The notes below the pieces were generated by a model. That model was not told the origin of the DNA. It was given only the letters and a program-made list of their open reading frames with translations, and did no database searches. Position numbers and translations under genes: made by a program. Below, one piece after another: positions 33,675 to 55,970 of a DNA stretch of 55,970 nt. Within the stretch, counting starts at the first letter, position 1. The number at the start of each line of letters is the position of its first letter. This DNA is from Clostridia bacterium. Lineage in GTDB: Bacteria > Bacillota > Clostridia > Peptostreptococcales > Anaerovoracaceae. Where the stretch lies: assembly GCA_024403185.1 (NCBI GenBank), contig JAKSSG010000006.1:1-55970 (forward strand), written 5' to 3'.

Positions 33675-33686
33675 TTTTGACCTCCA

Positions 33687-34616: not shown

Positions 34617-34637
34617 CTGGGCAGTCTCCTTTCCTAG

Positions 34638-35354: not shown

Positions 35355-35370
35355 GCTCAGCTTCACCTCC

Positions 35371-35931: not shown

Positions 35932-35955
35932 AAATTACACTTTCTTGCCTTTGCA

Positions 35956-37031: not shown

Positions 37032-40000
37032 ATGAAAGGCACATTCAAGAAAATCATCGCTCTGATCATGACGGTTGCTCTTGTTGCCACGACAATTACC
37101 TTTACAGCAGGTAATACTCTGAAGGCGGAAGAGAACCCGGGTGAGAGCACGGCAACGGAACAGAAGGCGGAACCGGCACCTGAACCTGAAAAGAGCGAAC
37201 CTGCAACGGAGAAGCAGGAAGTAGTCGTGGAATCCGATAAGAATGACTCTTCATCTGAAGCTGCAGAAACTGCGGAAGCTTCACCTGAAGACAGTTCAGC
37301 AGCTGTAACCGGTGAGGAAGCCGTTACAGAGGAAGAAGCGACTGAAGAAGAGGAAGAAGAAGAGGCAATGCCGGCACAGTCCTTCAGCCAGACTGCTTCA
37401 AACGGCATTACGGTAAGGGTATCAGCACCTGAAGGTGCCTTCCCTGAAGGAACAACAATGAAGGTTTCGGCCGTAAGCCACAGCAAGGCCATGTCTCTGG
37501 CAGAAGGCGTTGTTGACGACGTTTCGGATGCAAAGGGTGTTGACATCAACTTCTACAAGGACGGAAAGGAAATCCAGCCTAAGAAGAATGTTACCATCAA
37601 ATTCAGCAACGTTGGAGTTGAAGGTGAGGAATTCGGTTTCTATCACTTTGAAGGCAGCAGCGGAGAAAAGATCGGAAGCGCAACTTCAAATACCGCATCA
37701 GGCAAAAACGATGAATTCTCAATCTACATCGTTATCGGCCAGGATGAGGAAATCGAAGTCAGAGATGCACTCCAGCTCAACGTTCGTTTCCTGAACAATG
37801 CCAGCGTAGACATTCACGACAGAGATACCAAGTTCATCGAGGAGACTGATGAGCAGGGTAACTACACCGTAAACTATACACTTCCAACCATAGAGGGAAA
37901 GACACCTGAAACTGTAGAAGGCGAAGGTGCCAACTTTACATTGTCTGAAGATAAAACAAAGATTACAGCAACAGTTGCACCGCTTCCGAAGAACGAAGAC
38001 AGCGATGAAGTGGTACAGCAGACAGTAAGCTGCGTCGTTAAATATACATCAGGTAACGCAAACTACAAGGTAGAGCACTGGTTTGAAAAGCCGGATGCAA
38101 AGGCAGACACGCCTGCAGATCAGAAATACCAGAAGGATGCATCAATGGATACTGTTCTGTCAGGGGAAATCGAAACCGAAACAGCTGCAGCAGCAAATTC
38201 GGTTGAGGGATATACTGCACAGGAAATAAATCAGGAATACATCAAGGCAGACGGCAAGACAGTAGTAAAGGTTTACTATGACTGCAATGAATACTTCCTT
38301 ACATACAACACCATGGGCGGATCCTACATCAAGGGCAAGGACATCAAGCATGGCGGAAGCGTGGATATTTACAAGCCTGGAACAAAGACTCTTACATGTA
38401 CCACGCAGGAACACACTCATACTCCGGCAACGGGTACAGCAAAGAAGAATGCAACAAGCGGATGCTACAAGGCAACGAAGAGCGGACTGAGTTACAAGTG
38501 GACGCTGAACTGCAACAAGACAGAACACACTCACAGTGATGCATGCTATTCAACAACTGCAGGCAATCCTACACCGACAAAGGAAGGATTTGCATTTGAC
38601 GGCTGGTATCTTGATGAGGGATGCACTCAGGCTGCGCCTCAGAACATGGAAAACGTTAAGGGAGATCTCACTGTATATGCCAAGTGGACAGCAGCAAATG
38701 TAAACTACACCATAGTATATTACGCAGAAAATGCGGATGATAATGGATATTCATATGTAGGAAGCGATGTAAAGCAGGCCAAGACGGGAACGACAGTATC
38801 CGCCAGTGGTGGTTCAGCATCAGGAATTGATACTGCAAACTTCACATTCAAGAACGGAACATCAGCAACTGTCAAGGGTGATGGAAGTACTGTTGTAACT
38901 GCTTATTATTCAAGAAATGTATATACAATTACATGGGACGGCAGATACTATAAATCTTCAGGCTATGATAATACCGGTAAAACAGCTTCACTTACCGCCA
39001 AGTACGGTTCAAACATTACACAGAAGTGGAAGGATGTTTTCAATATTCCATATCCTGATTATGCATGGAACTTTACAACAAATAACAACGACAAGTTTGT
39101 AAATATTGATACCATGCCATCAGGCAATAAGACCGTACATGCTTTCTATTTTGCAACCACCAAGGTTGAAACCATGCAGTACTGGCTGGAAGGTTATTCC
39201 GGACAGGGTGTTCAGACAAAGACCAGAAACGGAGTAACGTATGGTCTTTACAAGTCAATCAATGTTAAGTTCAACAACCTGTATGATAATTCGGAATTCT
39301 ACGAAATTATCGGATACACAAAGAACGGATATGACAGCTCAAATCCAAGTGGCTATAAGCTTGGCAATTCCACAACAAACGGAATGACAATTAACTTCTA
39401 TTACCTGAGCAAGACATATCCTCTGGAACTTATCGGATACAAGGGAGCAAAGATCAAGACTGAACAGGTTAAGATGGGAGCACAGCTTTCACCATACCTG
39501 ACAACTCCTGCAGCACCTGTTGAAGGCGCAACCTTCAAGGGTTGGTTCACAGACCCTGAACATCAGGAAGCAAACACAATAACAGAAATGCCTCAGGGCC
39601 TTGTACTCTATGCTGACTGGAATCTGCCAAAGCATACAATCACATACAAGAGTGAAGGCGAAACAATAAAGACAGAAAAGATTGAGTATGAAAAGAGTCC
39701 TGAAACATTCATTCCGGAAAGAGAAGGATATACATTCAAGGGCTGGTATACTGCAGCAACAGGCGGAGAAGAGTTCGATATTAACGCGCCAATCGTAAGT
39801 GACATAACAGTCTATGCACACTGGACAGCCAAGTCAAAGGTTCAGTACACCGTTAAGTTTGAAACTGTTGACGGCGAAGAAGTATCAGCTTCATATTCTG
39901 ATCAGGGCAGAGTCGGCAGCAAGGTTAAGGCTGACGCGGTTTCCGCAACAGGAGACTTTGCGGGATATTATCCTGACGCTCCATCAAAGACGATTACACT

Positions 40001-43000
40001 GGATCAGGATGCAAGTAAAAATGTAATTACATTCAAGTATTCCGACAAGAGCGATTTCGATTACAGAATCGTTTACAAGTATGAAGGCAAGACAATCCAG
40101 ACAGGAGAGGTTGTTACCGTTCATCAGAATCAGACAAGAGTTGTTGCAACAGACATCCCTGCCGGATATCAGATTACAGGCGACCAGTACAAGACTGTTG
40201 ACCTGGGATTTGACAAGGTAACAGAGGTTGTATTCCAGCTGGCACCAAAGGAATACACAATTTCCTATGAAGACATCAAGGGTGCAGGCTGGAACGGCGA
40301 AGCCGGATGTGAACATCCGTCAACTTACACCTGCGACCAGCTGGTTGGCAATGAGATTACAATTGATGGAGTCAGCAGAGACGGATCGATTTTCCTGGGA
40401 TGGGATTTCACGGCAACGAACGCTGACGGTACGCCGGCAAGAGCAGTGGGCGAACACAATAACGAAAACCCTGTTATTTCAGAAGGAACATACGGTGACC
40501 TGGTATTCAAGGCTATCTGGGGCAAGGTAGTTGCCGACGATGTTGAAAAGACATACGACGGACAGCCTCTGGGAATCGGAACACCTCAGGTTGACGTGCC
40601 TTCATACTGCCAGGTTGGCAAGATCCAGTACAGCAAGGACGGCAAGGCATGGCAGGACAATATTCCTGAATGGACCGATGCAGGTACATATACTACCTAT
40701 ATAAAGGTAGTAATTAACGGCTACAGAAATCTGACGGGAACAGCTCAGGTTAAGATTAACAAGAGAGATGTAACTCTGGAATCAGCAACAGACAGTAAGG
40801 GTTACGACGGCAAGCCGCTGACTAACAAGAACGTTACAGTAAGCGGAGACGGCTTTGCAGGAAATGAAAGCGCAACCTATAACGTAACAGGTTCACAGAC
40901 AGAAAAAGGTGAAAGCGCCAACAGCTTCACATACACCCTGACAAACGGCGCAAAGGCAGGCAACTACAACATTACCAAGAAGGAAGGAAAGCTGACAGTA
41001 ACAGGTCAGAAGGATGTAGTTGTAACCATTAAGGAGCACGGTGGAGAATTCACATACGATGGAACTACAAAGACCGTAACAGGCTATGACATCGTATCGA
41101 TTTCCAATGCAAGCTATACATCAAAGGACTTCACCTTCAGTGGCAATGCATCAGTAAGCGGCAGGGATGCCGGAACTTACGAGATGCAGCTTAAGCCTGG
41201 AGATTTCCAGAACAAGAACAGCAATTACGACAGCGTAACATTCGTTGTTCAGGATGCTCAGCTGAAGATCAAGCCTATTTCAGACAAGATCATAATTACT
41301 GCAGCTTCAAACAGTAGCAAGAAATATGACGGCAAGGAACTCACAGATGACGGATACACTTATACTCCGAACATTCTGAGAGACGGAGATGTCCTCACTG
41401 CAGTAGTTGAAGGCAGCCAGACAGATGCCGGAACTTCAGCCAACAAGGTTGTAAGCTGGCAGGTTAAGCGCGGAGAAGAAGATGTAACTCACAATTATAC
41501 CTTCGGAACACCGAAGGACGGTACACTGGAAGTACTGAAGAGAGATGTTATTCTTACTTCAGACTCGGCATCAAAGGTATATGACGGTAAATATCTGAGC
41601 AAGGAATCAGTAACAGTATCAGGCGATGGCTTCGTTGAAGGCCAGGGCGCAACATACACTGACTTTGCATCAACCATGAAGATCGGCAGCATTGCCAATA
41701 CCTACAAGTATGCGCTTAACAGCAATACAAAGGCAGGAAACTACAATATTACAAAGAAGACCGGCACACTGACAATCATGTCAAAGGATACGCCGATCAC
41801 AATCAAGGCAAACTCAAACAGCAAGGTATATGACGGAACTCCTCTGGTAGATCCGGGCTTCACCTATACACAGGGAATCCTGGCAGAGGGCGACGTTCTC
41901 AAAGTAACTGTTTCCGGATCAGCCAAGGATGCAGGAACAGTGGAAAATACAGTAACTGCATGGAAGGTAATGCGTGGAGATGAAGATGTAACAGATTGCT
42001 ACAAATTCTCAACTCCTGTAGCAGGAAGCCTCACTGTAGAAAAGAGACAGGTTGAATTTACATCAGCGACAGACAGCAAGACATATGACGGACAGCCTCT
42101 GACCAACCACAACGTAACAGTTGGCGGAAGAGACGGATTCGCCGATGGCGAGGGTGCAGACTTTAATGTAACAGGAACAATCACAAAGGCCGGTTCAGTC
42201 AAGAACGCATTCACCTACACTCTCAAGGACGGTGCAAAGGCAGACAATTACATCATCAAGAAGACTGAAGGTACTCTGACAGTATCAAAGAAGGGCGATG
42301 TAGTTGTAACAATAACAGAACACAGCGGAAACTACACATATGACGGAACGGAAAAGACCGTTACCGGATATGATGTGTCAATTTCCAACGAACTTTACAA
42401 GGAAGCTGACTTCTCATTCAGCGGCAAGGCAGAGGTCAAGGGAACAGATGTCGGAACCTATGACATGCAGCTCAAGGCTTCAGACTTTACCAATAATAAT
42501 GAGGACTTCGAAAACGTAACATTCAGGATTGTTGACGGCAAGCTGCAGATCAGCAAGGTTGAAACGCCGATTACAATAACAGCCAACAGCAACCAGAAGA
42601 CCTATGACGGAACGGCACTGGAGGATAAGGGATACACCTATACTGATGGCGTTCTGGCAACAGGTGACAAGCTGACAGCAGTAGTAAGAGGTTCAATCAG
42701 GGATGCAGGAACGGAAGTTAACGAAGTTGTTTCCTACAAGGTAATGCGTGGGGACAAGGATGTAACCGCATTCTACACATTCGGAGATTCAGTAAACGGT
42801 GAACTGAAGGTTCTGCCTAAGGCACTTACTATCAAGTCAAAGGATGCAGAAAAGGAATACGATGGAACAGCTCTCACAAAGCATGAGCTGACAGATACTC
42901 CTGCTTTTGCACCTGGAGACTCTGCAACATTCAACTATACAGGCAGCCAGCTTGAAATAGGCAACAGCCAGAACACATTCACATGTCAGCTGGCAAATGG

Positions 43001-46000
43001 CGTAAACCCTGACAACTACGCCATCAGCCTGGAATACGGAACACTTAAGGTAACAAAGGTTCAGAAGCCGATCGTAATTACCGCAGCATCACAGGAAAAG
43101 ATGTATGACGGAGAGCCTCTGACAAACGGCGGTTTCACTTATACACAGGGCGTTCTCAGAAGCGGTGATGTACTTTCAGCGGAAGTAAAGGGTGAAATTA
43201 CAGACGCCGGCAGCACAAGCAATGTAGTAACATCATATAAGGTAATGAGAGGAAACCTTGATGTGACAAAGTGCTACACATTCGGCGATTCCGTAACGGG
43301 AACTCTGAAGGTAAGCAAGAGAAATGTAACCCTCACATCAGCAACAGCAAGCAAGGACTATGACGGTTCGGCACTGACAGATGACACCGTAACAGTAACA
43401 GGTGACGGATTCGTTAAGGGCCAGGGTCTGTTTGCAAAGGATGAGGGCGCAACATATGCGGTAACCGGCAGCCAGACAATTGCCGGCACAAGCAAGAATA
43501 CATTCAGCTATGCACTGAATGAAAATACAAAGGCAGGAAACTACAACATTACAAAGGTTGAAGGCAGTCTTACTGTAAATCCGATCGGAACACCGATTAC
43601 GGTTACGGCCAGATCCGACAGCAAGATCTATGATGGAACTGCACTTACAAACGGCAGATTCAGCTTCACGAAGGGAGTTCTCCTTGAAGGTGATGAGCTT
43701 ACAGCAGTAGTGACAGGCTCACAGACAGATGCCGGTTCATCGGATAATGTTGTTGAATCCTACAGGGTAATGAGAGGAAAGACTGATGTTACAGGATGCT
43801 ACAGCTTTACAGATTCCGTAAAGGGTACTCTGGAAGTAACAAAGAGATCAGTAACACTCACTTCAGGTTCAGACAGCAAGACATATGACGGAACTGCACT
43901 GACAAAGAATGAAGTTACCGTTTCAGGTGACGGATTCGCTGAGGGCGAAGGCTATACTGCAGATGTAACAGGAAGCCAGACCGAAGTCGGATCAAGTGCA
44001 AATGCATTTGAATATGCTCTAAATGAAGGAACAAGTGCAGACAACTATGAAATCACCAAGGCAGAAGGAACGCTGGCCGTTTCAGAACTTGGCGGAGTTG
44101 TAGTACAGATCAGAGAAAACAGCGACATCAAGGTATACAACGGTCAGGAACAGAAGGTTGAAGGCTACACGGTAGAATCAATCAGTGACCCTAAGTATAA
44201 GGAGAAGGACTTCTCATTTACCGGAGAAGCAGGACATAAGGTAGCCAAGGGAACAGACAAGGGCGAATACGACATGGGCCTTGTTCCTGAAGACTTTACA
44301 AACAACAACAAAAACTTCAAGGACGTTGAATTCCAGATCATCGATGGCCAGCTGACGATTACACAGGTTGAAGCGGTTCTGCAGATTAAGGCAGGAAGCG
44401 CTTACAAGATGTATGACGGAACAGAACTCACATGCTCCGACTGGACATGCACAAACAAGAGCGCACTGGCATCAGGCGATGAACTCAAGGTAACAACCGA
44501 GGGAACAATTACTAACTTTGGTGACACTGTAAACACAGTCAAGTCATACAAGGTAATGAGAGGAACAACTGATGTTACGGCAAACTACAGGTTCGCTGAA
44601 TCAGTTGACGGCGCTCTCGCAATCACAAAGAGAAACGTAACTCTCACATCAGCCGATGACAGCTGGAAGTATGACGGAAATGCGCACTTCAATAATGAAG
44701 TAGCCGCAGGAGGAGACGGATTTGTTGGAGAAGAGGGAGCAACATACAGCAACTTCCCTTCAATAACAGAAGTCGGAACAGTGGCAAACAGCTTCGATTA
44801 CACTCTGAAGGGTAATACGAATGCGGCCAACTACAGCATTTCAAAGACAGCCGGAACTCTGGAAATCAAGCCGGCAGAAAACGTTACTGTTCACATTACA
44901 GGAAATGTTGACACCGTAACATATAACGGAAGCGAACAGGAAGTAACAGGATACAGCTGGACTTCAACAAGCAGACTGGTAACTGAAGACGACTTTACAT
45001 TTAACGGAACTGCAGTTGCCAGAGGAACAGATGCGGGAACATATGACATGAACCTGACAGCTGAAATGTTCTCAAGCAGCACAAACAAGTTCAAGAGCAT
45101 TACATTCCAGATTGTAAGGGATGGAAAGCTGACCATCACTCCTGTTGAAACTGCAATCACAATTAAAGCAAAGAGCGGAAGCAAGATGTATGACGGCTCT
45201 GCACTTACGGCAGGTTATGAATACAATGAGAGTGCTCTGGTTAACGGAGATGTTCTGACAGCAGAAGTAAGCGGATCACAGACAAATGTGGGCAAGTCAG
45301 ACAACGTTGTTACTTCATATGTTGTCAAGCGCGGCGAAAAAGACGTAACGGCAAACTACAGGTTCAACACTTCAGTAAAGGGTGAACTGGAAGTTACAAA
45401 GAGAAGCGTTTCGCTCACATCTGCAACAGACAGCAAGACATACGATGGAACTGCACTTAAGAACCACAAGGTAACTGTAGGCGGCGACGGCTTTGCTGAA
45501 GGAGAAGGATTCACAAAGCATGTAACAGGAAGCATTACCGAAGTCGGAAGTACAGCAAATGCTTTCACTTACAGCCTCAACAATGGAACTCTTGAAGAAA
45601 ACTACATCATCACAAAGGCAGAAGGAACTCTGACCGTTACACCTGTAACAACAAAGCTGGTTATTACAGCCGGAAGTGCAGGCAAGATGTATGACGGAAC
45701 AGAGCTTACCTGCGATACAATCACTTACACTGAAAATGTTCTGGCAAAGGGAGATACTGTTCAGGCAACAGTTTCCGGCGGTCAGACTGCTGCAGGCACA
45801 TCAGCCAACACCATTGCTGATTACAAGATTATGAACGGAACAACTGATGTTACAAAGAACTACAGCAACATCAGCACAGTTGACGGAACACTCTCAGTAT
45901 CAAAGAGAAACGTAACCATTACATCAGCATCCCAGACATGGGAGTACGATGGTGAAGAACACTCAAACAGTGAAGCAACAGTAAGCGGTGACGGATTTGT

Positions 46001-49000
46001 AGAAGGTGAAGCGGACAATGCCAGAGGTACAGGTACAATTACCGAACTGGGATCCGCAGACAATACAATCGCTTACGATACTCATAAGGGCTTCAATGCA
46101 AACAACTACATCATTACAGAAACACCGGGAACTCTCAACGTAATTGAAGATTCCAATGAAGTAGTTGTAACCATTACAGGCCATAAGGGAGCATACGAAT
46201 ACGACGGAACTGCAAAGACTGTTGAAGGATACGAAGTATCCATCAGCAAGCCTTCATACAAGGCTTCATACATCAAGTTCAGCGGCACTGACAAAATCAC
46301 AAAGAAAAATGCCGGAACTTATGCAATGGGTCTGAAGGCTGAGGACTTCAGCAACAGCAACAAGGGCTTCAAAAACGTTAGATTCGTTGTAACAGACGGT
46401 GAACTGGAAATTACTCCTGTTTCAACAAACATCGTAATTACTGCAGAATCAGCCAGCAAGAAGTATGACGGAACGGCTCTTGAAAAGAACGATTTCACAT
46501 ACACTGAAGGCGTTCTCGTAAACGGAGATACTCTTACTGCAGTTGTTGAAGGTTCACAGACAGACGCAGGAACAAGCGCCAATGTTGTAACATCATATGC
46601 AGTAATGAACGGTGACAGGGACGTTACCGGAAACTACACATTCGGCGATTCCGTTGACGGAACACTGACAGTAACAAAGAGAGCTGTAACACTCACATCA
46701 GCCACAAAGGCATGGACATATGACAGAGAAGAGCATTCAGAGCCTGTTGTAAGAGCAACCGGCGACGGATGGGCTGACGGCGAAGGTGCAGATTATAACG
46801 TAACAGGAAGCATCAGGAATGTAGGAGAAAAGCCAAACGCATTTACTTACACTCTTAACGACGGAACTCTTGCAGACAACTACATCATCACAATGGATGA
46901 AGGAACTCTGAAGATCAATCCTGTTGCAGGCAAGGTAACTGTAACAATTACAGGAAACAGAGGTACAGCTGTATATAACGGAACCGAACAGGAAGTTACG
47001 GGATACAGCATCGAATCGGACAATGAACTGTACACTGCTGCAGACTTCAGCTTCACAGGCACTGCCAGAGCTGCGGGACTTGATGTGGGAATCTACAGCA
47101 TGAGCATGAATCCGTCCGACTTCGTGAACACAAATACAAACTTCTCAGAGGTAGAGTTTACAGTAGTAAACGGAACACTTGAAATAACTCCGATTGAAAA
47201 GGAAATCGTTGTCAAGGCAAGATCGGCCCAGAAGGAATACGACGGCTCAGCACTTGTAAACAGCGGATTCACATTTACAGATGATGTTCTCATCGGAGAC
47301 GATATTCTCACTGCAGTTGTAACCGGCTCGATTACAAATGCAGGTTCAGCAATCAACACAGTTGAAAGCTACAAGGTAATGCGTGGCAAGACTGATGTAA
47401 CAGGAAACTACACCTTCGGCAAGTCCGTAAACGGAACACTTACCGTAACACCGAGACCTGTTACCATCAAGTCACAGAACGGCGAAAAGACATATGACGG
47501 AACAGCGCTCAGAAAGGAAGCCTTCGATGTTACAGAGGGAAGCCTGGTAAGCGGTGAGACATTCATCGGTTCAGCATATGCAGAGAGAACTGAAGTGGGT
47601 ACTTCAGCCAACACATTCACTGTTGCCGCAGGTGCAAACACAAGCCTGGACAACTACAGCATTACAAAGCAGAACGGCGAACTGAATGTAACAAAGAAGG
47701 GCGACGTTGTTGTAACCATTACAGGTAATTCCGATACGGTTACATATAACGGCAGCGAACAGAGTGTAGACGGTTACACATGGACTGCAAGCTGCAATAC
47801 GGCTGACAGAACACTCTACAGCGAAAGCGACTTCACATTTAACGGCACAGCAGTTGCCAGTGGAACAGATGCCGGAAACTACATGATGAATCTGAAGGAA
47901 TCAGACTTCGCAAATGTAAATCCGAACTTTGAAAATGTTAAGTTCGTAATTAACGACGGTAAACTTACCATTAACCCTGTTTCAGAAGAAATAGAAGTTG
48001 TCATTAGTGAACACAGTGATACAAGGGCATACACAGGATCCCTGCAGAGCGTAACGGGATACGACATTGAACTGCCTAAGGATTCACTCTATACAAGAGC
48101 TGACTTCAGCAAGCCTGCACAGGATTCACCTAAGGCTACGGCAAGCGGAACATTGGCAGGCAAGTACCCTATGGGACTTAAGGCAACTGATTTCAGCAAC
48201 ACAAGCAGGAACTTCACAAATGTCAAGTTCAGAATCGTTGACGGCGAGCTGACAATTACTCCGGCTGACATCTCAATCGAGATAAAGGCTGCTTCAGAAA
48301 GCAGAAAGTATAACGGACAGCCGCTGACAAACGACGGATGGAGCTACACTGATAATTCAGGAAGCCTCATTGAAGGAGATACCATTGACGTATCTGTTTC
48401 AGGAACGGTAACAAATGCCGGCAAGACAAACAATGTACCGACAGTTGTAATCAAGCGCAACGGCGTTGATGTAACCGGATCATACAAGTCAGTCAAGGGA
48501 ATCAAGGGCGAGCTGGAAGTTACAAAGAGAGATGTTACTCTCACATCGGCAACAGCCAGCAAGACATATGACGGCAAGGCTCTTGAAAACCACAACGTTA
48601 CAGTTGGCGGAGACGGATTCGCAGGCAACGAGGGAGCAAGCTTCAGCGGATTCCAGTCAATCACAGATCCTGGAAGCATCAGAAACGTATTTAGCTACCA
48701 GCTTTCAGGCGGTGCTGTTGCGGACAACTACAACATCACAAAGACTGAAGGAACCCTGACAGTAAACAGAATCAACACTCCTATTTCCATCAAGGCGGAT
48801 TCAGCCAGCAAGACATATGACGGCACAGAGCTGACAAAGGGAACATATACATACACAGAAAATGTTCTGGTAGCAGGAGATGTTCTGACAGCTACAGTTG
48901 AAGGATCAATCAAGGATGCCGGCACCGCAGCAAACAACGTAACATCATACAGGGTAATGCGTGGCACGACCGATGTTACTGACAACTATACATTTGCTGC

Positions 49001-52000
49001 TTCAGTACCTGGCGAACTGAAGATAACAAAGAGAAATGTAACTCTCACATCCGCAACGGATGGATGGACATACGACGGAAACGTTCACTCAGCTGAGCGC
49101 GTTGCAGTAAGCGGTGACGGATTCGCCGGAAACGAAGGCGCTTCATATTCCGAATTCACTACAATCAAGAAGGCCGGAACAGTTGATAACGAATTCAAGT
49201 ATGAACTGAACAGAGGAACAGATGCGGACAACTACCAGATTACAGTTGTAAAGGGCAAGCTGTCAGTTGCAAAGAAGAACCAGGTTGTTGTAAACATCAC
49301 AGGACATACTGCTACTGTTCCGTATAACGGACAGACGCAGTCAGTAACGGGATACGATGTATCGATTACCGATCCTCTCTATTCAGAAGCATCATTCAGA
49401 TTCAAGGGTAACGCTACGGCAAGCGGACTTGATGTGGACACTTATGCAATGGGTCTGAAGGCTGCGGACTTTGAAAACACAGATGAAGACTTCGACAATG
49501 TAATATTCAACGTTAAGGACGGCAGTCTGGTAATTACACCGGTTTCAACACCGATAGTTGTAACAGCAGCAAGCCAGTCAAGAATGTACAACGGCGAAGC
49601 ACTTGAAAACGATGGCTTCACATACACTCAGAATGTTCTGAAGAGCGGAGACACTGTTGAGGCTACAGTAACGGGAAGCATCACAGATGCAGGCAGCACT
49701 GTCAACAAGGTAAGCGGCGTCAAGGTAACACGTGACGGCAAGGATGTAAGCGGAAACTACATCTTCGGAGAAAATGTTGACGGAACTCTGATAGTTACAA
49801 AGAGAACTGTAGTCCTGACATCCGGAAACGGCAGCAAGACATTTGACGGAACACCTCTTACAAATGAAGATGTTGCAGTATCGGAAGACGGATTCATCGA
49901 TGGCGAAGGCTTCACAGCAGATGTTACAGGAACACGTACAGAAGTCGGAACATGTGACAATGAATTCACATATGAACTGAATGAAGGTACAAAGGCAGTA
50001 AACTACAATATCACTACTGCACTCGGAACTCTTGAAGTAACACCTGTTACAGAAAAGGTTACCGTAACAATTACCGAAAACAGCGGTGAGTTCACATATG
50101 ACGGAACTCTCAGAACTGTTAAGGGATATACCTTCAGTGCAGACAACAGACTGTACCTTGAAAAGTATGCATCCTTCTCAGGAAATGCAATCGTAAGCGG
50201 CACTTATGCCGGTACATATAACATGGAACTGAAGGCAAGCGACTTCAGAAATACAAGTCCTGCCTTTGCAGATGTAACATTCGTAATTGATGACGGACAG
50301 CTGAAGATCAATCCGATCAACAAGGAGATTCTGATTAAGGCCAGGAGCGATTCCAAGATGTATGACGGAACAGCTCTGAAGAACGCCGGATACGAAGTGA
50401 CGGAAAACAATGTTCTGGTTAACGGAGACAAGGTTGTTCCGGTAATCAGAGGATCACAGACTGACGCCGGAACATCGGACAATGTTGTATCAGGATACAG
50501 GATCATTAACGGTACAACTGATGTTACAGAATGCTACAGCGGTGTGAAGACTGAAAAGGGTACACTGGAAGTTACAAAGAGAAAGGTAACCCTCACATCA
50601 GCAGACGACACCAAGGTTTATGACGGAGAGGCTCTCGTTAACGGCAATGTAACTGTTGGCGGAGACGGCTTCATCGGAAACGAAGGAGCAGCATTCAATG
50701 TAAAGGGAAGTCAGACCGAGGTTGGTTCAAGTGCAAATGAATTCGGATACACTCTGAACGAAGGCACAAAGGCCGGAAACTACAGCATAAGCAAGACTGA
50801 GGGAACTCTGGAAGTAACTGCTCCTGGATCGGTAGTGGTTAAGATCAGGGAGAACAGCGGAAGCAAGGTTTACAACGGTCAGGAACAGTCTGTAACAGGC
50901 TACAGCATCGTTGGAATCGACAACCCTAGATACAAGGCTTCATACTTCACAGGACCTGCTCAGGATTCAGCTGCGGCAACAGCAAAGGGTACTGATGCCG
51001 GAACATACGACATGAACCTGAAGGCTTCAGACTTCAGGAACAATAACAGGAACTTTACAGATGTAACATTCCAGATTATCGACGGACAACTGGAGATTAC
51101 ACCTGTAGCAGATGAAGTAACTGTAACAATTACAGGCAACAGCAAGACCGATGAAACATACAACGGCGAGCTGCACAGTGTAAGCGGTTATGAAATCTCA
51201 ATTGACAATAATCTGTACAAGGCAGCGGATATCAGCAAGCCTGCACAGGATTCCGAAGCTGCAACAGCCAGCGGAGTCAAGGCGGATACATACACCATGA
51301 CGCTGAATGCCAGGGATTTTGCAAACATCAGCAAGAACTTTACAAATGTAAAATTCGTTGTAAAGCCTGGCAAGCTGGTAATCAATCCGTTTGAAGCAAA
51401 TGTAAAGATTACCGCTGATAACGCTACAAGAAAATACAATGGAAAGGCTCTTACAAAGGATTCATTCACAGTAAGCGGCAGCCTTGTGGAAGGTGACCAG
51501 ATTCTGGCTGAAAACGTGACAGTATCCGGATCACAGACAGATGTAGGCGAAGGCGTTAATACCGTAACAGCCTACAGAATTACAAGAGACGGTGTTGATG
51601 TAACCGCATCATACACAGGCGTTACAACAGCTACAGGAAAGCTGACTGTCAAGCCGAGAAAGGTAACTCTCACATCGGCAACAGACAGCAAGACATATGA
51701 CGGAACTGCACTTGTAAACAGCAACGTGACAGTTGGCGGTGACGGATTCGTTTCAGGTGAGGGTGCATCATACGATGTAACAGGTTCACAGCTTGATGTT
51801 GGTACAAGCGACAACGAATTCACATATGCTCTGAACGACGGAACAAAGGCCGACAACTATGAAATTGAAACAGTTGCAGGAACTCTGACAGTCGAAAGAG
51901 TAACTACACCGATAACAGTTACAGCTGCTTCGAAGAGCAAGATGTACGACGGAACTCCGCTGTTCGATGCCGGATTCTCATGGACAGAAGGAATTCTGGC

Positions 52001-55000
52001 CGAAGGCGATGTACTGACAGCAGTAGTCGAAGGAACGATTACAGATGCAGGAACAGTAAACAATGAAGTTCAGTCATACAAGGTAATGCGTGGAAATACC
52101 GATGTAACAGGAAACTACACATTCGGAACTTCAGTAAAGGGAACTCTGACAGTTGGACAGAGATCCGTAACTCTCACATCAGCAACAGACAGCAAGACAT
52201 ATGACGGTTCAGCACTGACCAATGACACTGTTACCGTATCAGGTGATGGATTCATCAAGGGTGAAGGCGCATCATATGAAGTAACAGGCAGTCAGCTGAA
52301 GAAGGGAACAAGCAGCAACACATTCGATTACACTCTGGATGGCAATACAAAGGCAGAAAACTACAGCATTACAAAGGTTGAAGGAACTCTGACAGTATCA
52401 GCTGATGACAGTGAAGTAATCGTAACAGTAACTGAACACGGCGGAGACTATGAATATGACGGTACAGAGAAGACCGTAACGGGATATGATGTATCCATTT
52501 CAAATCCTCTGTACAGCGACACATACTTCACATTCAGCGGAAATGCAAAGGTAAGCGGAACAGATGCAGGTTCATATGACATGCAGCTGACAGCAGCCAA
52601 CTTCAGGAACAACAGTGAAGAGTTTACAAATGTAACATTTGTAATCGTTGACAGACAGCTGACCATCAGAAAGAAGGTCATCAACATTACCGTAACCGCC
52701 GGCAGCGACAGCAAGAAATACGACGGCACAGCCCTGACAGTTGCGGAAAGCACAGTTGCAGGTGACTCACCGGCACCGGGACAGGAAATCAGGGTTACAA
52801 CATCAGGAACCATTACAGATGCGGGAACAGGAGATAACCTGGTCGACACCATCAGAGTAATGGACGGAAACAATGATGTGACCGGAAACTATGAGATCGT
52901 TGCGGAAAAGGTTAAGGGCACACTTACCATCGAAAAGAGAGATGTAACCATTACATCAGCAACAGACAGCAAGACATATGATGGCAGTGCGCTTACAAAG
53001 AATGAAGTTACCGTAACCGGCGACGGCTTCATCGAAGGTGAAGGATACACAACCGAATTTACAGGAACTCAGACAGAAGTCGGAACAAGTGACAACGAGT
53101 TCACATATGAACTCAAGGATGGCACAAAGGCCGGAAACTACAACATCGTTGTAGAAAAGGGCAAGCTGAGCGTAACACCTGTAAGAGAAAAGGTAACTGT
53201 AACAATCACAGAACACAGCGGAACGGCAACTTATGACGGAACTGTCAAGACTGTAACGGGATATGATTTCAGCGCTGACAATGAACTCTACAGGAAAGAC
53301 TATGTTGACTTCGGCGGATCAGCTTCCGTAAGCGGAACTCTGGCCGGAACATACGACATGGAACTTGCAGCTGAAGACTTTGCAAACAACAGCAGCAACT
53401 TCACAAATGTGGAATTCAGGATTGTTGACGGAACTCTTGAAATCAACCCGATCAGCAAGAAACTCGTAATCACTGCTGATTCGAACAAGAAGGTATATGA
53501 CGGACAGGCACTGACAGATGCAGGTTACACCTACACAGAAAATGTTCTTGTAAGCGGAGATGTACTGACAGCTACAGTTGAAGGAACAATCACAGATGTA
53601 GGTACTGCAGACAATGCAGTCAAGTCATACAAGGTAATGCGTGGCGAAACTGATGTTACAAAGTGCTACACAGGCATCAGGACATCAAAGGGTCAGCTGG
53701 AGGTAACTCCAAGACCTGTAACCATCAAGTCAGAAAGCGCTGCAAGACCATATGACAAGAAGCCTCTGAAGGCTGAAACTGTAAACGTAACAGGCGGTCT
53801 TGGTTTTGCAGAAGGTGAAGGATTTGAATACAGCAACTTCGCAAGCATCACCAATGTAGGTTCAACACCTAACACTTACGATTATGCGGCTGCCGAAGGA
53901 ACCAAGCTGAGCAACTACGACATTACAGCCGAAGAGGGCCTGCTGACGGTAACCAGAAAGGGCGATGTAATCGTAACAATCACCGGCCACAACAATGGCG
54001 ACGGCGATGCATATGACAGAAAGGCACATACTGTCAAGGGATACGACGTTTCAATCCAGGGCAGCGATGAATACACAGAAGCCGACTTCACATTCGATGG
54101 AAACAATGAAGTGACAAGAACTGATGCCGGAACAACTTCCATGGGCATGACAGAGAAGAACTTCAGCAACAACGATGAGGGCTTCGATGTAACATTCGTT
54201 GTATACGATGGATATGTGAAGGTTAACCCTATCACTGAAGAAACAGTAGTAACAATTACAGAACACAGCAAGACAGATGCTGTATATAACGGCAGAACTC
54301 AGACAATAAACGGATATGACATCAGCATTCCGGAAGGATCGCTGTACAGTGAAGATGACTTCACAAAGATCGGACAGAATCATGAGCATGCTACAGCAAG
54401 CGGAATGATTGCGGCAGCATATGACATGAACATCCTGAGTGATGACTTCACCAACAACAACACCAACTTCACAAATGTCAGGTTTGAGGTTGTTGACGGA
54501 CAGCTGGTAATAGCACCTGTTTCAGATGCAATTACAGTAAAGGCCAAGAGCGGCAAGAAGATCTATGACGGAACCGCACTGACAAATGACGGCTTCAGGA
54601 TTGAAGGAACTCTGGTTGACGGAGATATCCTGACAGCGGTTGTTGAAGGAACGCAGACTGACGTCGGTACCGGCGTAAACGAAGTGACTTCATACATCAT
54701 CAGGCACGGTGACATTGATGTAACTGATTCATATTCAGGAGTTACAACTGCAAACGGAAATCTGGAGATTACAGCCAGAGCCGTTACACTCACATCAGCA
54801 TCCGACAGCAAGGAATATGACGGAACTGCACTTACTGCAAAGAGCGTGAAGGCTGAGGGCTTCGTTGAAGGCGAAGGCGCAACATACGATGTAACAGGTT
54901 CACAGCTTGATGTGGGAGAAAGCAGCAATACATTCGAGTACACTCTTAACGGCAATACGAAGAAGGGCAACTACGAAATCACTGTAGTACCTGGTAATCT

Positions 55001-55970
55001 GAAGGTTAAGAAGAACACTAATGAAATCGTCGTTACAGCAGATTCAGATTCAATGAAGTACAACGGAACTGCACTCGAAAATGCGGGATTCACTTATACA
55101 GATAAGGTCCTTGCACAGGGTGAAGTTCTGACGGCAACAGTTGAAGGTTCAAGAACCAAGGCCGGCACTTCAGACAATGTGGTTACTTCATACAAGGTAA
55201 TGCGTGGAGACACAGATGTAACTGAATTCTACACATTCGGCAAGTCGATTGACGGATCACTGACAGTTACAAAGAGAAACGTAACTCTCACATCAGCAAC
55301 AGACAGCAAGGTTTACGATGGTGAGGCTCTTGAAAACCACAACGTTGCAGTAAGCGGAGACGGATTCGCTGCAGGTGAAGGAGCAACATACAACGTAACC
55401 GGCAGCCAGCTCAAGCAGGGTACAAGCAAGAATACATTCACTTATGCCCTGAATGAAGGAACGGATGCAGGAAACTACAACATTACAACAAAGGAAGGAA
55501 CTCTGACAGTAAGCAAGAAGGGTAAGGTAACAGTAACCATTACTGAACACAGCGGACAGTACACTTACGATGCTACCGAGAAGACTGTTAACGGATACGA
55601 TGTATCAATCAGTGATCCGCTCTATACTGCAGACGACTTCACATTTAGCGGAAATGCGGTAGTCAAGGGTACAAATGCCGGAACATACGACATGGAACTC
55701 ACTGCTGATGACTTCGTTAACAATAACGAAAACTTCGACGATGTAACATTCGTAATCAATGACGGCGCACTGGTTATCGAAAAGAAGACAATAACCATTC
55801 AGATCAAGGGAGACGACGAGTCCAGAACATACAACGGTGAAGAACTCACAGGCGGAAGCACCGTATACGGCGAATCACCGGTTAAGGGCGAAATCGTTGT
55901 AACAACTGAAGGCGGCATCACAGATGTAGGCGAAACAGCAAACAAGATTACAGATGTACGCATCATGGAC
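37032..55970 (+). CDS. Giant secreted surface protein with InlB/MucBP-like and about 60 YDG/MBG repeats (3' end beyond window)
   Basis: One open frame of 6,313 codons from ATG 37032 to the window edge. It has AAGGAAGG upstream. The order is: signal peptide (MKGTFKKIIALIMTVALVAT, cleavage probably near residue 33); an acidic Pro/Glu/Ser/Thr stretch to about residue 118; a folded domain (ASNGITVRVSAPEGAFPEG); a Cys/His module with two EHTH motifs (about 454-507); InlB-like repeats (FDGWYLDEG, FKGWFTDPE, FKGWYTAAT) mixed with MucBP-like beta repeats to about 1,165; then YDG/MBG-type modules of 80-95 residues to the end. Repeats of this sort form long fibres or stalks for adhesion. No anchor (LPxTG, SLH) is visible because the C terminus is missing. 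Divergent from a pilus operon. No internal stop or frameshift was seen. Confidence 0.9.
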   Translation, partial: MKGTFKKIIALIMTVALVATTITFTAGNTLKAEENPGESTATEQKAEPAPEPEKSEPATEKQEVVVESDKNDSSSEAAETAEASPEDSSAAVTGEEAVTEEEATEEEEEEEAMPAQSFSQTASNGITVRVSAPEGAFPEGTTMKVSAVSHSKAMSLAEGVVDDVSDAKGVDINFYKDGKEIQPKKNVTIKFSNVGVEGEEFGFYHFEGSSGEKIGSATSNTASGKNDEFSIYIVIGQDEEIEVRDALQLNVRFLNNASVDIHDRDTKFIEETDEQGNYTVNYTLPTIEGKTPETVEGEGANFTLSEDKTKITATVAPLPKNEDSDEVVQQTVSCVVKYTSGNANYKVEHWFEKPDAKADTPADQKYQKDASMDTVLSGEIETETAAAANSVEGYTAQEINQEYIKADGKTVVKVYYDCNEYFLTYNTMGGSYIKGKDIKHGGSVDIYKPGTKTLTCTTQEHTHTPATGTAKKNATSGCYKATKSGLSYKWTLNCNKTEHTHSDACYSTTAGNPTPTKEGFAFDGWYLDEGCTQAAPQNMENVKGDLTVYAKWTAANVNYTIVYYAENADDNGYSYVGSDVKQAKTGTTVSASGGSASGIDTANFTFKNGTSATVKGDGSTVVTAYYSRNVYTITWDGRYYKSSGYDNTGKTASLTAKYGSNITQKWKDVFNIPYPDYAWNFTTNNNDKFVNIDTMPSGNKTVHAFYFATTKVETMQYWLEGYSGQGVQTKTRNGVTYGLYKSINVKFNNLYDNSEFYEIIGYTKNGYDSSNPSGYKLGNSTTNGMTINFYYLSKTYPLELIGYKGAKIKTEQVKMGAQLSPYLTTPAAPVEGATFKGWFTDPEHQEANTITEMPQGLVLYADWNLPKHTITYKSEGETIKTEKIEYEKSPETFIPEREGYTFKGWYTAATGGEEFDINAPIVSDITVYAHWTAKSKVQYTVKFETVDGEEVSASYSDQGRVGSKVKADAVSATGDFAGYYPDAPSKTITLDQDASKNVITFKYSDKSDFDYRIVYKYEGKTIQTGEVVTVHQNQTRVVATDIPAGYQITGDQYKTVDLGFDKVTEVVFQLAPKEYTISYEDIKGAGWNGEAGCEHPSTYTCDQLVGNEITIDGVSRDGSIFLGWDFTATNADGTPARAVGEHNNENPVISEGTYGDLVFKAIWGKVVADDVEKTYDGQPLGIGTPQVDVPSYCQVGKIQYSKDGKAWQDNIPEWTDAGTYTTYIKVVINGYRNLTGTAQVKINKRDVTLESATDSKGYDGKPLTNKNVTVSGDGFAGNESATYNVTGSQTEKGESANSFTYTLTNGAKAGNYNITKKEGKLTVTGQKDVVVTIKEHGGEFTYDGTTKTVTGYDIVSISNASYTSKDFTFSGNASVSGRDAGTYEMQLKPGDFQNKNSNYDSVTFVVQDAQLKIKPISDKIIITAASNSSKKYDGKELTDDGYTYTPNILRDGDVLTAVVEGSQTDAGTSANKVVSWQVKRGEEDVTHNYTFGTPKDGTLEVLKRDVILTSDSASKVYDGKYLSKESVTVSGDGFVEGQGATYTDFASTMKIGSIANTYKYALNSNTKAGNYNITKKTGTLTIMSKDTPITIKANSNSKVYDGTPLVDPGFTYTQGILAEGDVLKVTVSGSAKDAGTVENTVTAWKVMRGDEDVTDCYKFSTPVAGSLTVEKRQVEFTSATDSKTYDGQPLTNHNVTVGGRDGFADGEGADFNVTGTITKAGSVKNAFTYTLKDGAKADNYIIKKTEGTLTVSKKGDVVVTITEHSGNYTYDGTEKTVTGYDVSISNELYKEADFSFSGKAEVKGTDVGTYDMQLKASDFTNNNEDFENVTFRIVDGKLQISKVETPITITANSNQKTYDGTALEDKGYTYTDGVLATGDKLTAVVRGSIRDAGTEVNEVVSYKVMRGDKDVTAFYTFGDSVNGELKVLPKALTIKSKDAEKEYDGTALTKHELTDTPAFAPGDSATFNYTGSQLEIGNSQNTFTCQLANGVNPDNYAISLEYGTLKVTKVQKPIVITAASQEKMYDGEPLTNGGFTYTQGVLRSGDVLSAEVKGEITDAGSTSNVVTSYKVMRGNLDVTKCYTFGDSVTGTLKVSKRNVTLTSATASKDYDGSALTDDTVTVTGDGFVKGQGLFAKDEGATYAVTGSQTIAGTSKNTFSYALNENTKAGNYNITKVEGSLTVNPIGTPITVTARSDSKIYDGTALTNGRFSFTKGVLLEGDELTAVVTGSQTDAGSSDNVVESYRVMRGKTDVTGCYSFTDSVKGTLEVTKRSVTLTSGSDSKTYDGTALTKNEVTVSGDGFAEGEGYTADVTGSQTEVGSSANAFEYALNEGTSADNYEITKAEGTLAVSELGGVVVQIRENSDIKVYNGQEQKVEGYTVESISDPKYKEKDFSFTGEAGHKVAKGTDKGEYDMGLVPEDFTNNNKNFKDVEFQIIDGQLTITQVEAVLQIKAGSAYKMYDGTELTCSDWTCTNKSALASGDELKVTTEGTITNFGDTVNTVKSYKVMRGTTDVTANYRFAESVDGALAITKRNVTLTSADDSWKYDGNAHFNNEVAAGGDGFVGEEGATYSNFPSITEVGTVANSFDYTLKGNTNAANYSISKTAGTLEIKPAENVTVHITGNVDTVTYNGSEQEVTGYSWTSTSRLVTEDDFTFNGTAVARGTDAGTYDMNLTAEMFSSSTNKFKSITFQIVRDGKLTITPVETAITIKAKSGSKMYDGSALTAGYEYNESALVNGDVLTAEVSGSQTNVGKSDNVVTSYVVKRGEKDVTANYRFNTSVKGELEVTKRSVSLTSATDSKTYDGTALKNHKVTVGGDGFAEGEGFTKHVTGSITEVGSTANAFTYSLNNGTLEENYIITKAEGTLTVTPVTTKLVITAGSAGKMYDGTELTCDTITYTENVLAKGDTVQATVSGGQTAAGTSANTIADYKIMNGTTDVTKNYSNISTVDGTLSVSKRNVTITSASQTWEYDGEEHSNSEATVSGDGFVEGEADNARGTGTITELGSADNTIAYDTHKGFNANNYIITETPGTLNVIEDSNEVVVTITGHKGAYEYDGTAKTVEGYEVSISKPSYKASYIKFSGTDKITKKNAGTYAMGLKAEDFSNSNKGFKNVRFVVTDGELEITPVSTNIVITAESASKKYDGTALEKNDFTYTEGVLVNGDTLTAVVEGSQTDAGTSANVVTSYAVMNGDRDVTGNYTFGDSVDGTLTVTKRAVTLTSATKAWTYDREEHSEPVVRATGDGWADGEGADYNVTGSIRNVGEKPNAFTYTLNDGTLADNYIITMDEGTLKINPVAGKVTVTITGNRGTAVYNGTEQEVTGYSIESDNELYTAADFSFTGTARAAGLDVGIYSMSMNPSDFVNTNTNFSEVEFTVVNGTLEITPIEKEIVVKARSAQKEYDGSALVNSGFTFTDDVLIGDDILTAVVTGSITNAGSAINTVESYKVMRGKTDVTGNYTFGKSVNGTLTVTPRPVTIKSQNGEKTYDGTALRKEAFDVTEGSLVSGETFIGSAYAERTEVGTSANTFTVAAGANTSLDNYSITKQNGELNVTKKGDVVVTITGNSDTVTYNGSEQSVDGYTWTASCNTADRTLYSESDFTFNGTAVASGTDAGNYMMNLKESDFANVNPNFENVKFVINDGKLTINPVSEEIEVVISEHSDTRAYTGSLQSVTGYDIELPKDSLYTRADFSKPAQDSPKATASGTLAGKYPMGLKATDFSNTSRNFTNVKFRIVDGELTITPADISIEIKAASESRKYNGQPLTNDGWSYTDNSGSLIEGDTIDVSVSGTVTNAGKTNNVPTVVIKRNGVDVTGSYKSVKGIKGELEVTKRDVTLTSATASKTYDGKALENHNVTVGGDGFAGNEGASFSGFQSITDPGSIRNVFSYQLSGGAVADNYNITKTEGTLTVNRINTPISIKADSASKTYDGTELTKGTYTYTENVLVAGDVLTATVEGSIKDAGTAANNVTSYRVMRGTTDVTDNYTFAASVPGELKITKRNVTLTSATDGWTYDGNVHSAERVAVSGDGFAGNEGASYSEFTTIKKAGTVDNEFKYELNRGTDADNYQITVVKGKLSVAKKNQVVVNITGHTATVPYNGQTQSVTGYDVSITDPLYSEASFRFKGNATASGLDVDTYAMGLKAADFENTDEDFDNVIFNVKDGSLVITPVSTPIVVTAASQSRMYNGEALENDGFTYTQNVLKSGDTVEATVTGSITDAGSTVNKVSGVKVTRDGKDVSGNYIFGENVDGTLIVTKRTVVLTSGNGSKTFDGTPLTNEDVAVSEDGFIDGEGFTADVTGTRTEVGTCDNEFTYELNEGTKAVNYNITTALGTLEVTPVTEKVTVTITENSGEFTYDGTLRTVKGYTFSADNRLYLEKYASFSGNAIVSGTYAGTYNMELKASDFRNTSPAFADVTFVIDDGQLKINPINKEILIKARSDSKMYDGTALKNAGYEVTENNVLVNGDKVVPVIRGSQTDAGTSDNVVSGYRIINGTTDVTECYSGVKTEKGTLEVTKRKVTLTSADDTKVYDGEALVNGNVTVGGDGFIGNEGAAFNVKGSQTEVGSSANEFGYTLNEGTKAGNYSISKTEGTLEVTAPGSVVVKIRENSGSKVYNGQEQSVTGYSIVGIDNPRYKASYFTGPAQDSAAATAKGTDAGTYDMNLKASDFRNNNRNFTDVTFQIIDGQLEITPVADEVTVTITGNSKTDETYNGELHSVSGYEISIDNNLYKAADISKPAQDSEAATASGVKADTYTMTLNARDFANISKNFTNVKFVVKPGKLVINPFEANVKITADNATRKYNGKALTKDSFTVSGSLVEGDQILAENVTVSGSQTDVGEGVNTVTAYRITRDGVDVTASYTGVTTATGKLTVKPRKVTLTSATDSKTYDGTALVNSNVTVGGDGFVSGEGASYDVTGSQLDVGTSDNEFTYALNDGTKADNYEIETVAGTLTVERVTTPITVTAASKSKMYDGTPLFDAGFSWTEGILAEGDVLTAVVEGTITDAGTVNNEVQSYKVMRGNTDVTGNYTFGTSVKGTLTVGQRSVTLTSATDSKTYDGSALTNDTVTVSGDGFIKGEGASYEVTGSQLKKGTSSNTFDYTLDGNTKAENYSITKVEGTLTVSADDSEVIVTVTEHGGDYEYDGTEKTVTGYDVSISNPLYSDTYFTFSGNAKVSGTDAGSYDMQLTAANFRNNSEEFTNVTFVIVDRQLTIRKKVINITVTAGSDSKKYDGTALTVAESTVAGDSPAPGQEIRVTTSGTITDAGTGDNLVDTIRVMDGNNDVTGNYEIVAEKVKGTLTIEKRDVTITSATDSKTYDGSALTKNEVTVTGDGFIEGEGYTTEFTGTQTEVGTSDNEFTYELKDGTKAGNYNIVVEKGKLSVTPVREKVTVTITEHSGTATYDGTVKTVTGYDFSADNELYRKDYVDFGGSASVSGTLAGTYDMELAAEDFANNSSNFTNVEFRIVDGTLEINPISKKLVITADSNKKVYDGQALTDAGYTYTENVLVSGDVLTATVEGTITDVGTADNAVKSYKVMRGETDVTKCYTGIRTSKGQLEVTPRPVTIKSESAARPYDKKPLKAETVNVTGGLGFAEGEGFEYSNFASITNVGSTPNTYDYAAAEGTKLSNYDITAEEGLLTVTRKGDVIVTITGHNNGDGDAYDRKAHTVKGYDVSIQGSDEYTEADFTFDGNNEVTRTDAGTTSMGMTEKNFSNNDEGFDVTFVVYDGYVKVNPITEETVVTITEHSKTDAVYNGRTQTINGYDISIPEGSLYSEDDFTKIGQNHEHATASGMIAAAYDMNILSDDFTNNNTNFTNVRFEVVDGQLVIAPVSDAITVKAKSGKKIYDGTALTNDGFRIEGTLVDGDILTAVVEGTQTDVGTGVNEVTSYIIRHGDIDVTDSYSGVTTANGNLEITARAVTLTSASDSKEYDGTALTAKSVKAEGFVEGEGATYDVTGSQLDVGESSNTFEYTLNGNTKKGNYEITVVPGNLKVKKNTNEIVVTADSDSMKYNGTALENAGFTYTDKVLAQGEVLTATVEGSRTKAGTSDNVVTSYKVMRGDTDVTEFYTFGKSIDGSLTVTKRNVTLTSATDSKVYDGEALENHNVAVSGDGFAAGEGATYNVTGSQLKQGTSKNTFTYALNEGTDAGNYNITTKEGTLTVSKKGKVTVTITEHSGQYTYDATEKTVNGYDVSISDPLYTADDFTFSGNAVVKGTNAGTYDMELTADDFVNNNENFDDVTFVINDGALVIEKKTITIQIKGDDESRTYNGEELTGGSTVYGESPVKGEIVVTTEGGITDVGETANKITDVRIMD
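38069..40520 (+). repeat. InlB-like (Listeria-Bacteroides) and MucBP-like repeat region of giant adhesin
   Basis: Coding repeats. Segments such as GFAFDGWYLDEGCTQ, GATFKGWFTDPEHQEA, GYTFKGWYTAATGGEEF and VYAxW endings are InlB_B type. YKVEHWFEKPD...VVKVYYD and NYTIVYYAENAD...VVTAYYS are MucBP-like. TVKFETVDGEE...ITFKYSD and RIVYKYEGKTIQTGE...VVFQL continue the series. They lie between the N-terminal domain and the YDG/MBG array. Confidence 0.75.
45405..48530 (+). repeat. Higher-order repeat, copy 1 (3,126 bp, 12 modules)
   Basis: Module order AC-ABC-ABC-ABBC. It begins at the SVSLTSATDSKTYDG A module and ends before the next DVTLTSATASKTYDG A module. Residues 2,792-3,833. Confidence 0.8.
48531..51659 (+). 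repeat. Higher-order repeat, copy 2 (3,129 bp, 12 modules)
   Basis: Same AC-ABC-ABC-ABBC order as copy 1. The two adjacent B modules (near 50,827 and 51,113) share the 'KPAQDS..ATASG'-type insert with the second B of copy 1 (near 47,990), at the same phase. Confidence 0.8.
51660..54779 (+). repeat. Higher-order repeat, copy 3 (3,120 bp, 12 modules)
   Basis: Same AC-ABC-ABC-ABBC order. The last C module (near 54,526) shares the DVT-SYxGVTTAxG ending with the last C module of copy 2 (near 51,392). Confidence 0.8.
54780..55970 (+). repeat. Higher-order repeat, partial copy 4 (cut by window edge)
   Basis: Modules A-C-A-B-C so far, as expected for the start of a fourth copy. Its second C module (near 55,785) has the unusual VYGESP/IVVTTEGGITDVG form otherwise seen only at the same phase in copy 3 (near 52,678). 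Confidence 0.75.

Follow-up and report, generated by a model that had tools for sequence, protein, structure and literature searches.

A 12-module super-repeat in a giant MBG-type surface protein of a Clostridia bacterium

Introduction

Growth by super-repeats is known from the giant proteins of muscle. In the titin A-band, as described in PMC10665226, FnIII module types follow one another as -AC-ABC in the D-zone and as -AC-ABC-ABC in the C-zone, between Ig domains; that account attributes the super-repeats to block duplication and finds the similarity of modules at the same position pronounced in the central copies only. Domain repeats often expand by several domains at once, nebulin by seven (PMC1553488). 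Among bacterial surface proteins, Periscope Proteins are described as changing their copy number through intragenic recombination (PMC8201768, PMC9704523), and a rule discussed in PMC4647330 and PMC8201768 holds that neighbouring modules of large proteins differ.

Here we analyse a giant gene at the end of the window, by which we mean the whole stretch of 55,970 nucleotides under study. A preliminary description had proposed that its protein modules form a higher-order repeat of 12, that the gene grew by duplicating blocks of about 1,042 residues, and that the arrangement resembles centromeric satellites. In alpha-satellite higher-order repeats, diverged monomers lie inside a larger unit, and the copies of this unit are near-identical.

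Results

A giant open reading frame encodes an array of MBG-type modules

The following features define the N-terminal part of the gene.

36987..55970, + strand, giant surface-protein open reading frame (ORF) of 6,328 codons, running off the contig end
37032..37130, + strand, signal-peptide-like N-terminus, first residues MKGTFKKIIALIMTVAL, recognised by eye from the translation
39633..39821, + strand, Flg_new / List_Bact repeat, the better of two stretches (Pfam PF09479, 2.6e-24; TIGR02543)

By eye, an acidic stretch follows the signal-like segment, and an array of ~85-residue modules with a YDG-like motif lies C-terminal to the Flg_new repeats. HMMs built from the ORF's own modules resolved 59 of them in the window, of three types, A, B and C. 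MBG scored above the Pfam cut-off in all three pieces of the ORF and MBG_2 in two of the three; Pfam domains of the MBG / MBG_2 / YDG set thus stand in tandem, as in MBG stalks. By position, the top MBG stretches correspond to B modules and the top MBG_2 stretches to A and C modules together, and among the ABC trimers (n = 19) MBG and MBG_2 each matched 12 (E<=0.1). The modules presumably adopt a beta fold. Pfam and NCBIfam scans of the N-terminal part detected no adhesive domain, the matches there being Flg_new and, far under its cut-off, a weak EbpS-like one, and the ~1,190 residues ahead of the modules may hold an unrecognised domain. A PDB sequence search gave a single match at E<=1, the Lactobacillus adhesin fragment 4ng0 (E 0.34), which is a lead only.

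The C-terminal end of the gene lies very probably on contig C32 of the same genome, where a 5'-open ORF (L009:2-1375) encodes the modules AACA, a hydrophobic segment and a basic tail; this end piece also scores MBG_2 above the Pfam cut-off. The ORF begins within the last C module, the one cut by the window's contig edge, and the junction is spanned, with ~3 codons between the two pieces, by the orthologue in another genome, G017 (see below). Since C32 starts in that same C and carries AACA and the end, the complete gene very probably counts 63 modules and ~6,790 residues. The hydrophobic segment and the basic tail were seen by eye both on C32 and in G017, and no LPXTG was seen by eye at either C-terminal end.

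Several neighbouring features were recorded. A signal peptidase (Peptidase_S26) gene lies 3' of the C32 end piece (L009:1877-2407). Upstream of the giant gene, positions 29866-36639 of the window hold divergent neighbours on the minus strand, including GGDEF, ECF sigma factor, transglutaminase-like, T2SSF and T2SSE genes, and the first 8,000 positions have a G+C content of ~38%, against 42-50% in later 2-kb steps. The window's genome (G000) also carries two more related proteins, a 994-residue MBG-module ORF on contig C14 and, on contig C50, a 1,062-residue ORF matching the giant protein's N-terminal region.

The modules recur in a 12-module order

Read in sequence, the modules spell ABCACABCACACABCABC, followed by ACABCABCABBC three times and by ACABC. 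The super-repeat units start at 45,402, 48,528, 51,657 and 54,777, each one codon before the start given in the preliminary description, whose order of three full copies and a partial fourth (ACABC) and whose spacings of 3,126, 3,129 and 3,120 bp were confirmed by the module HMMs. The array divides as follows.

40764..41540, + strand, modules 1-3, ABC, ahead of the arrays, from the module HMMs
41541..42818, + strand, modules 4-8, ACABC, interpreted as part of an older unit (phases 1-5 going by module order)
42819..45401, + strand, modules 9-18, AC-AC-ABC-ABC, interpreted as a degenerate 12-mer lacking two B modules
45402..48527, + strand, super-repeat copy 1, modules 19-30, ACABCABCABBC
48528..51656, + strand, super-repeat copy 2, modules 31-42
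51657..54776, + strand, super-repeat copy 3, modules 43-54
54777..55970, + strand, partial copy 4, modules 55-59, ACABC, its final C truncated at the contig edge

An in-register match with 68% DNA identity links 807 bp, which begin in module 5 and reach into module 8, to modules 44 to 47. All cells of the window follow the pattern A-B(n)-C, and the 21 successive B counts are 1 0 1 0 0 1 1, then three rounds of 0 1 1 2, and finally 0 1. This series contains a run of 10 matches at lag 4, which shuffling reproduced with p=0.00014 at lag 4 and, for a run of at least 10 matches at any lag from 1 to 10, with p=0.001. The periodicity of the order goes along with strong divergence: at the protein level, identity among the three unit copies is 48-50%, same-type modules average 48.1% over 556 pairs, and adjoining modules average 32% (58 pairs). 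Tandem Repeats Finder, with a longest covered period of 500, reported no repeat. Unit copies this diverged rule out a recent, centromere-like amplification, and the likeness to centromeric satellites drawn in the preliminary description is a loose one, far from near-identical copies.

Lag 12 carries the largest excess of similarity

Sequence similarity was then compared across distances in the array, with module main effects removed within types and the excess at each lag expressed as the mean residual times root n. Among lags with at least 5 pairs, the largest excess falls at lag 12 in the window and G017 genes alike, while the per-pair mean exceeds that of lag 12 at a few lags with few pairs (11, 13 and 25 in the window; 5, 11, 25 and 34 in G017). 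In permutations, lag 12 reached p=0.004 in the window and p=0.022 in G017, with p=0.21 for any of 42 lags and p=0.50 for any of 33 lags, respectively. The runner-up in the window is lag 11, which fits the reading of modules 9-18 as an older unit that lacks some B modules. At lags 24 and 36 the residuals lie near zero or below it, and the effect at lag 12 is small in absolute terms, a mean identity of 49.4% against the 48.1% of all same-type pairs. In residue dot-plots, to which the type order contributes, lags 2,085 and 1,042 rank first and second for the window protein, and lag 1,041 ranks only fifth for the G017 protein.

The same analysis bears on the claim that the gene did not grow by single modules. 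Duplication of neighbours or of single modules leaves little signal as a main mode, the residuals at lags 2 and 3 being -0.17 each in the window, where no lag from 2 to 10 stands out. Other values qualify the claim: the three adjacent BB pairs of the window are somewhat alike (+0.58), and in G017 lag 2 stands at +0.16 and lag 5 at +0.48, the latter close behind lag 12.

Phase leaves a weak and patchy mark on the module sequences

If the blocks had been copied whole, modules at the same phase of the 12-module unit should resemble one another. In the window (modules 19-59), same-phase pairs are 47.8% identical (51 pairs) and other-phase pairs 45.3% (153 pairs), far from units much more alike than their monomers, as in centromeric repeats. 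This excess gave p=0.014 (raw) and 0.037 (residual) by identity, and 0.003 and 0.008 by BLOSUM score; including modules 9-18 gave p=0.012, and adding modules 4-8 p=0.007. For G017 (modules 19-47), the identity test was not significant (p=0.10 and 0.26) and the BLOSUM test marginal (0.033 and 0.093). Any same-position likeness of the titin type would therefore amount to a small excess, with p from 0.003 to 0.04 in the window depending on measure and units.

Module trees, built from window modules 19-59 only, had been proposed as a check, with modules expected to cluster by phase. The B modules did so, with 5 phase changes on the tree against a shuffled mean of 7.7 (as low in 2 of 200 shuffles), an effect driven by phase 11. 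The A and C modules did not, with 7 changes (shuffled mean 8.2, as low in 43/200) and 8 changes (mean 8.1, as low in 125/200), respectively. Only at phase 11 does a single branch set apart the full group of copies; among the A modules, copies 1 and 3 form a pair at phase 9 and copies 2 and 3 at phase 6. Judged by identity, copies 2 and 3 go together at phases 6 and 7, and copies 3 and 4 at phase 4.

Special variants had likewise been said to recur at the same phase, which is true only in part.

47991..48269, also 51,117-51,395 and 54,243-54,524, + strand, phase-11 B module with a PAQD-type insert

The insert is present in all three phase-11 B modules and also in one phase-10 B, and the motif RPVTIKS in two of the three phase-9 A modules. 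The phase-10 B concerned belongs to copy 2 (50832-51110), and its phase-11-type insert probably arose by local conversion between neighbouring B modules. Because the same-phase excess is small and the trees are patchy, phase appears only weakly and patchily recorded in the module sequences. The blocks differ from centromeric repeats in being both old and mosaic.

Related giant proteins carry blocks of other lengths

Matches to the N-terminal region of the giant protein occur in 27 of 49 genomes of the genus. Arrays or contigs from 16 of the 49 were read, and the 12-module string was present in two genomes only, those of the window and G017; other large arrays in these 16 genomes are mostly alternating. 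Two candidate orthologue fragments, G009:C23 and G036:C96, were rejected, since by eye they resemble the C-terminal ends of other MBG proteins.

The residual lag test was applied to seven alternating arrays, L066, L067, L033 and L035 (from module 5, non-alternating ends dropped), L032 (modules 2-21 of 30), L069 (1-28 of 34) and L070 (3-18 of 30), with L034 left out and with even spacing used to cut those D-type modules in L032 and L069 which the HMMs had missed. Lag peaks were found at 16 modules in L066, L067 and L033, at 14 in L035, at 8 in L032 and at 4 in L069, the maximum over lags reaching p<=0.003 in all six; L070 gave no lag peak by this method. L066, L067, L033 and L035 are mutual orthologues (64-87% identical) and align without large gaps, except for ~135 residues missing in L035. 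For L066, identity is 54% at lag 16 and 48-52% at the other lags listed, and for L032 it is 78% at lag 8 and 54-59% at all remaining lags between 2 and 14. In L032 (G024:C10), 1,473 bp of the gene are also repeated perfectly and in direct orientation; the copies, at DNA offsets 4512 and 6495, are 1,983 bp or eight modules apart and point to block duplication or conversion in the very recent past.

Another genus of the family contributed L084 (G193:C2), an AC-alternating giant protein with a 6-module super-repeat. Over its modules 4-24 of 24, identity reaches 73% for lag 6 and 70% for lag 12, against 45-48% at lags 2, 4, 8, 10, 14 and 16, and 53% at lag 18 (3 pairs). The contrast between unit copies and the monomers inside a unit is large in L084 and L032, unlike in the window. 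The block repeats in L032, L084, L066 and others show multi-module blocks to be a recurrent feature of this protein family, apparently of differing ages. One further observation concerns L070 (G046:C60) and L085 (G197:C11), whose 4,102-residue MBG protein is 99.98% identical although the genomes are assigned to two genera; this is wrong binning or recent transfer.

The orthologue in G017 differs by one whole block

G017, of the same genus, provided the sole collinear full-length orthologue found, a complete gene of 5,790 residues from a signal-like start to a hydrophobic end (contig JAUNIQ010000006.1 of a Bacillota MAG, the sequence identity of both being confirmed). When residues 141-2818 were scanned against named genomes, three loci were returned, namely the G017 record, one Clostridia MAG and one Treponema MAG, the latter two at 28-30%. 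The G017 modules read ABCACABCACACABCABC, ACABCABCABBC twice, ACABC and AACA; its periodic array ends at the same place as the window's copy 4 and then continues with AACA to the C-terminus. The two proteins are 79% identical over 5,206 residues, and their alignment shows, leaving aside the contig end and an N-terminal gap of 31 residues, a single gap of at least 25 residues, a block of 1,045 residues.

49803..52937, + strand, block absent from G017, modules 36-47, 1,045 codons; its ends can slide within the crossover zone
49803..50321, + strand, crossover zone, copy 2 side, modules 36A-37B
52938..53456, + strand, crossover zone, copy 3 side, modules 48A-49B

G017 modules 1-35 find their best matches in window modules 1-35, and G017 modules 37-47 in window modules 49-59; in between, G017 module 36 is 69% identical to window module 48 and 62% to window module 36. 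In 30-residue windows, G017 modules 33-34 are 73-90% identical to copy 2 and 38-63% to copy 3, and modules 39-40 are 62-93% identical to copy 3 and 23-59% to copy 2. The change from copy 2 to copy 3 thus falls across phases 6-7, but G017 resembles copy 3 inside module 36, copy 2 again at the 36/37 border, and then copy 3. This back-and-forth indicates that the switch is a zone rather than a single point. It lies at the most similar in-register pair, since modules 36 and 48 form the top ungapped 200-bp self-match of the window gene (77.5%). In the rest of the G017 assembly, whose completeness is rated at 85%, no orthologous copy of the missing block was found.

The 47 shared orthologous module pairs are 69-94% identical, with a median of 82%. 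Over 45 orthologous modules (the set excludes G017 modules 36, 37 and 48-51), dN/dS is 0.157 and dS between the species is ~0.69. The gene is therefore under selection, and this purifying selection is strong. Because one block is absent and the switch is in register, the 12-module unit behaves as a recombination unit. Most likely, a 12-module unit was lost in G017 by in-register recombination, as judged from the sequence comparison; the inference of block change rests on one indel event between two draft assemblies, the G017 contig being at 6.8x coverage. Together with the block duplications in relatives, this one-block difference supports the part of the preliminary interpretation that has the gene changing by whole blocks; the interpretation as a whole is borne out in part.

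The order itself might instead be a selected grammar, in which modules were shuffled one at a time and the repeating order AC-ABC-ABC-ABBC is favoured by the geometry of the fibre or by a binding partner. Such a grammar would account for same-phase modules being barely more alike than others, for the trees uniting a whole phase at phase 11 only, and for an order conserved, the missing block aside, between two species at this dS. We nevertheless hold it improbable, since the sole observed change took out one block through an in-register switch, relatives display plain block duplications at high identity, and the shorter lags of the window are unremarkable, even if lag 5 of G017 nears lag 12.

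Granting block duplication, the event could have run in the other direction, with a third unit gained in the window's lineage after the species split. The data give a difference only, and no outgroup with a collinear array was present among the arrays read. A recent unequal crossover, however, would have left pairs within the window about as alike as orthologues, and the highest of the 556 same-type pairs reaches 71% (75% with ends trimmed); the 29 lag-12 pairs have a pooled dS of 1.4, against 0.69 between the species. With no window pair looking recently duplicated, loss in G017 is favoured, and a gain seems quite improbable. An assembly artefact, either a collapse in G017 or a false join in the window, is most improbable, for although both assemblies are drafts, the array sits at a contig edge and the G017 contig has low coverage, modules 36-47 differ from all others and cannot be false copies, the longest exact repeats of the window gene (31 bp) and of the G017 gene (33 bp) lie away from the switch, and the remainder of the two genes is collinear.

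Discussion

We consider it likely that the giant gene encodes the stalk of a surface fibre, a block-duplicated MBG-type array whose length changes by whole 12-module blocks, in register. The protein would probably be membrane-anchored, built of MBG-type modules of subtypes A, B and C and, by analogy with the stalk families described in PMC8201768 and PMC9704523, rod-shaped, with the stalk presumably carrying the N-terminal domains away from the cell. The array would have grown long ago through multi-module block duplication, from which all three copies probably descend, the mature block being AC-ABC-ABC-ABBC. Neighbouring modules would have been kept different, which should limit misfolding and slippage. 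With neighbours kept different, good recombination partners would lie one block away, and intragenic recombination, probably homologous, would pair similar modules at that distance and shift the length by one block, in register.

The one-block difference between sister species suggests that fibres resize by whole blocks. More broadly, super-repeat growth may also shape bacterial surface fibres, beyond the muscle giants from which it is known. The relatives form an apparent age series, from the 1,473-bp perfect block repeat, through blocks at 73-78%, to blocks at ~50% in which little but the module order is left. The window array also suggests a way for a fibre to keep unlike neighbours, and with them less misfolding, while still changing its length by recombination between block-distant partners. 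A further reading, that this bacterial family independently evolved titin-like super-repeats by which the giant fibres are assembled and resized, and whose block of 4-16 modules, rather than the module, is the functional unit, a putative ruler of the axial spacing of binding sites or of fibre pitch, is in our view unlikely.

Several described systems share parts of this design. Like Periscope Proteins (SasG, Rib, Sgo_0707 and CdrA, the last with MBG_2), the giant protein has a repetitive stalk with an MBG_2 stalk domain (PMC8201768, PMC9704523). Unlike the highly identical, fast-changing repeats described there, its modules are ~48% identical, as are its units (48-50%), and collinear between species bar one block; the variation in repeat number is a difference of one unit, seen between two species. 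The 32% mean identity of neighbours in the window fits the neighbours-differ rule as discussed in PMC4647330 and PMC8201768. Acinetobacter BAP, as presented in PMC4647330, is likewise giant, with diversified 80-110-residue modules of several types; its modules are Ig-like and no higher-order unit is described in that account, whereas the window has MBG modules in a 12-module unit. At the far end stand the alpha-satellite units, near-identical where those of the window share 48-50% of their protein residues.

The super-repeat is real and of a kind already known from titin and nebulin, but apparently new for this MBG protein family; its description as a feature not known before stands for the family, within the literature searched, and not for the kind. 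A search of the open-access literature, at the level of listings, turned up no description of a super-repeat in a bacterial surface protein. New here is also that related giant MBG proteins carry super-repeats of 8 modules (78%), 6 modules (73%) and 16 modules (54%). Our lag method is in effect the autocorrelation of PMC1553488, and the survey reported there describes repeats as chiefly eukaryotic; in the account consulted it treats neither MBG fibres nor units as long as 12-16 modules. The closest parallel to the giant MBG array, by analogy with the account in PMC10665226, is the titin A-band. Like titin as described there, the array has three module subtypes in a repeated order, with short cells followed by cells that contain an added middle module, and with shorter blocks preceding the full ones. 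Unlike titin, the window gene is bacterial and intron-free, its modules are of the MBG type, its 12-module unit includes a double-B cell, and the giant MBG fibre has no known partner filament of matching period. The shared letters are accidental, while the shared build is factual; nothing suggests homology between the two.
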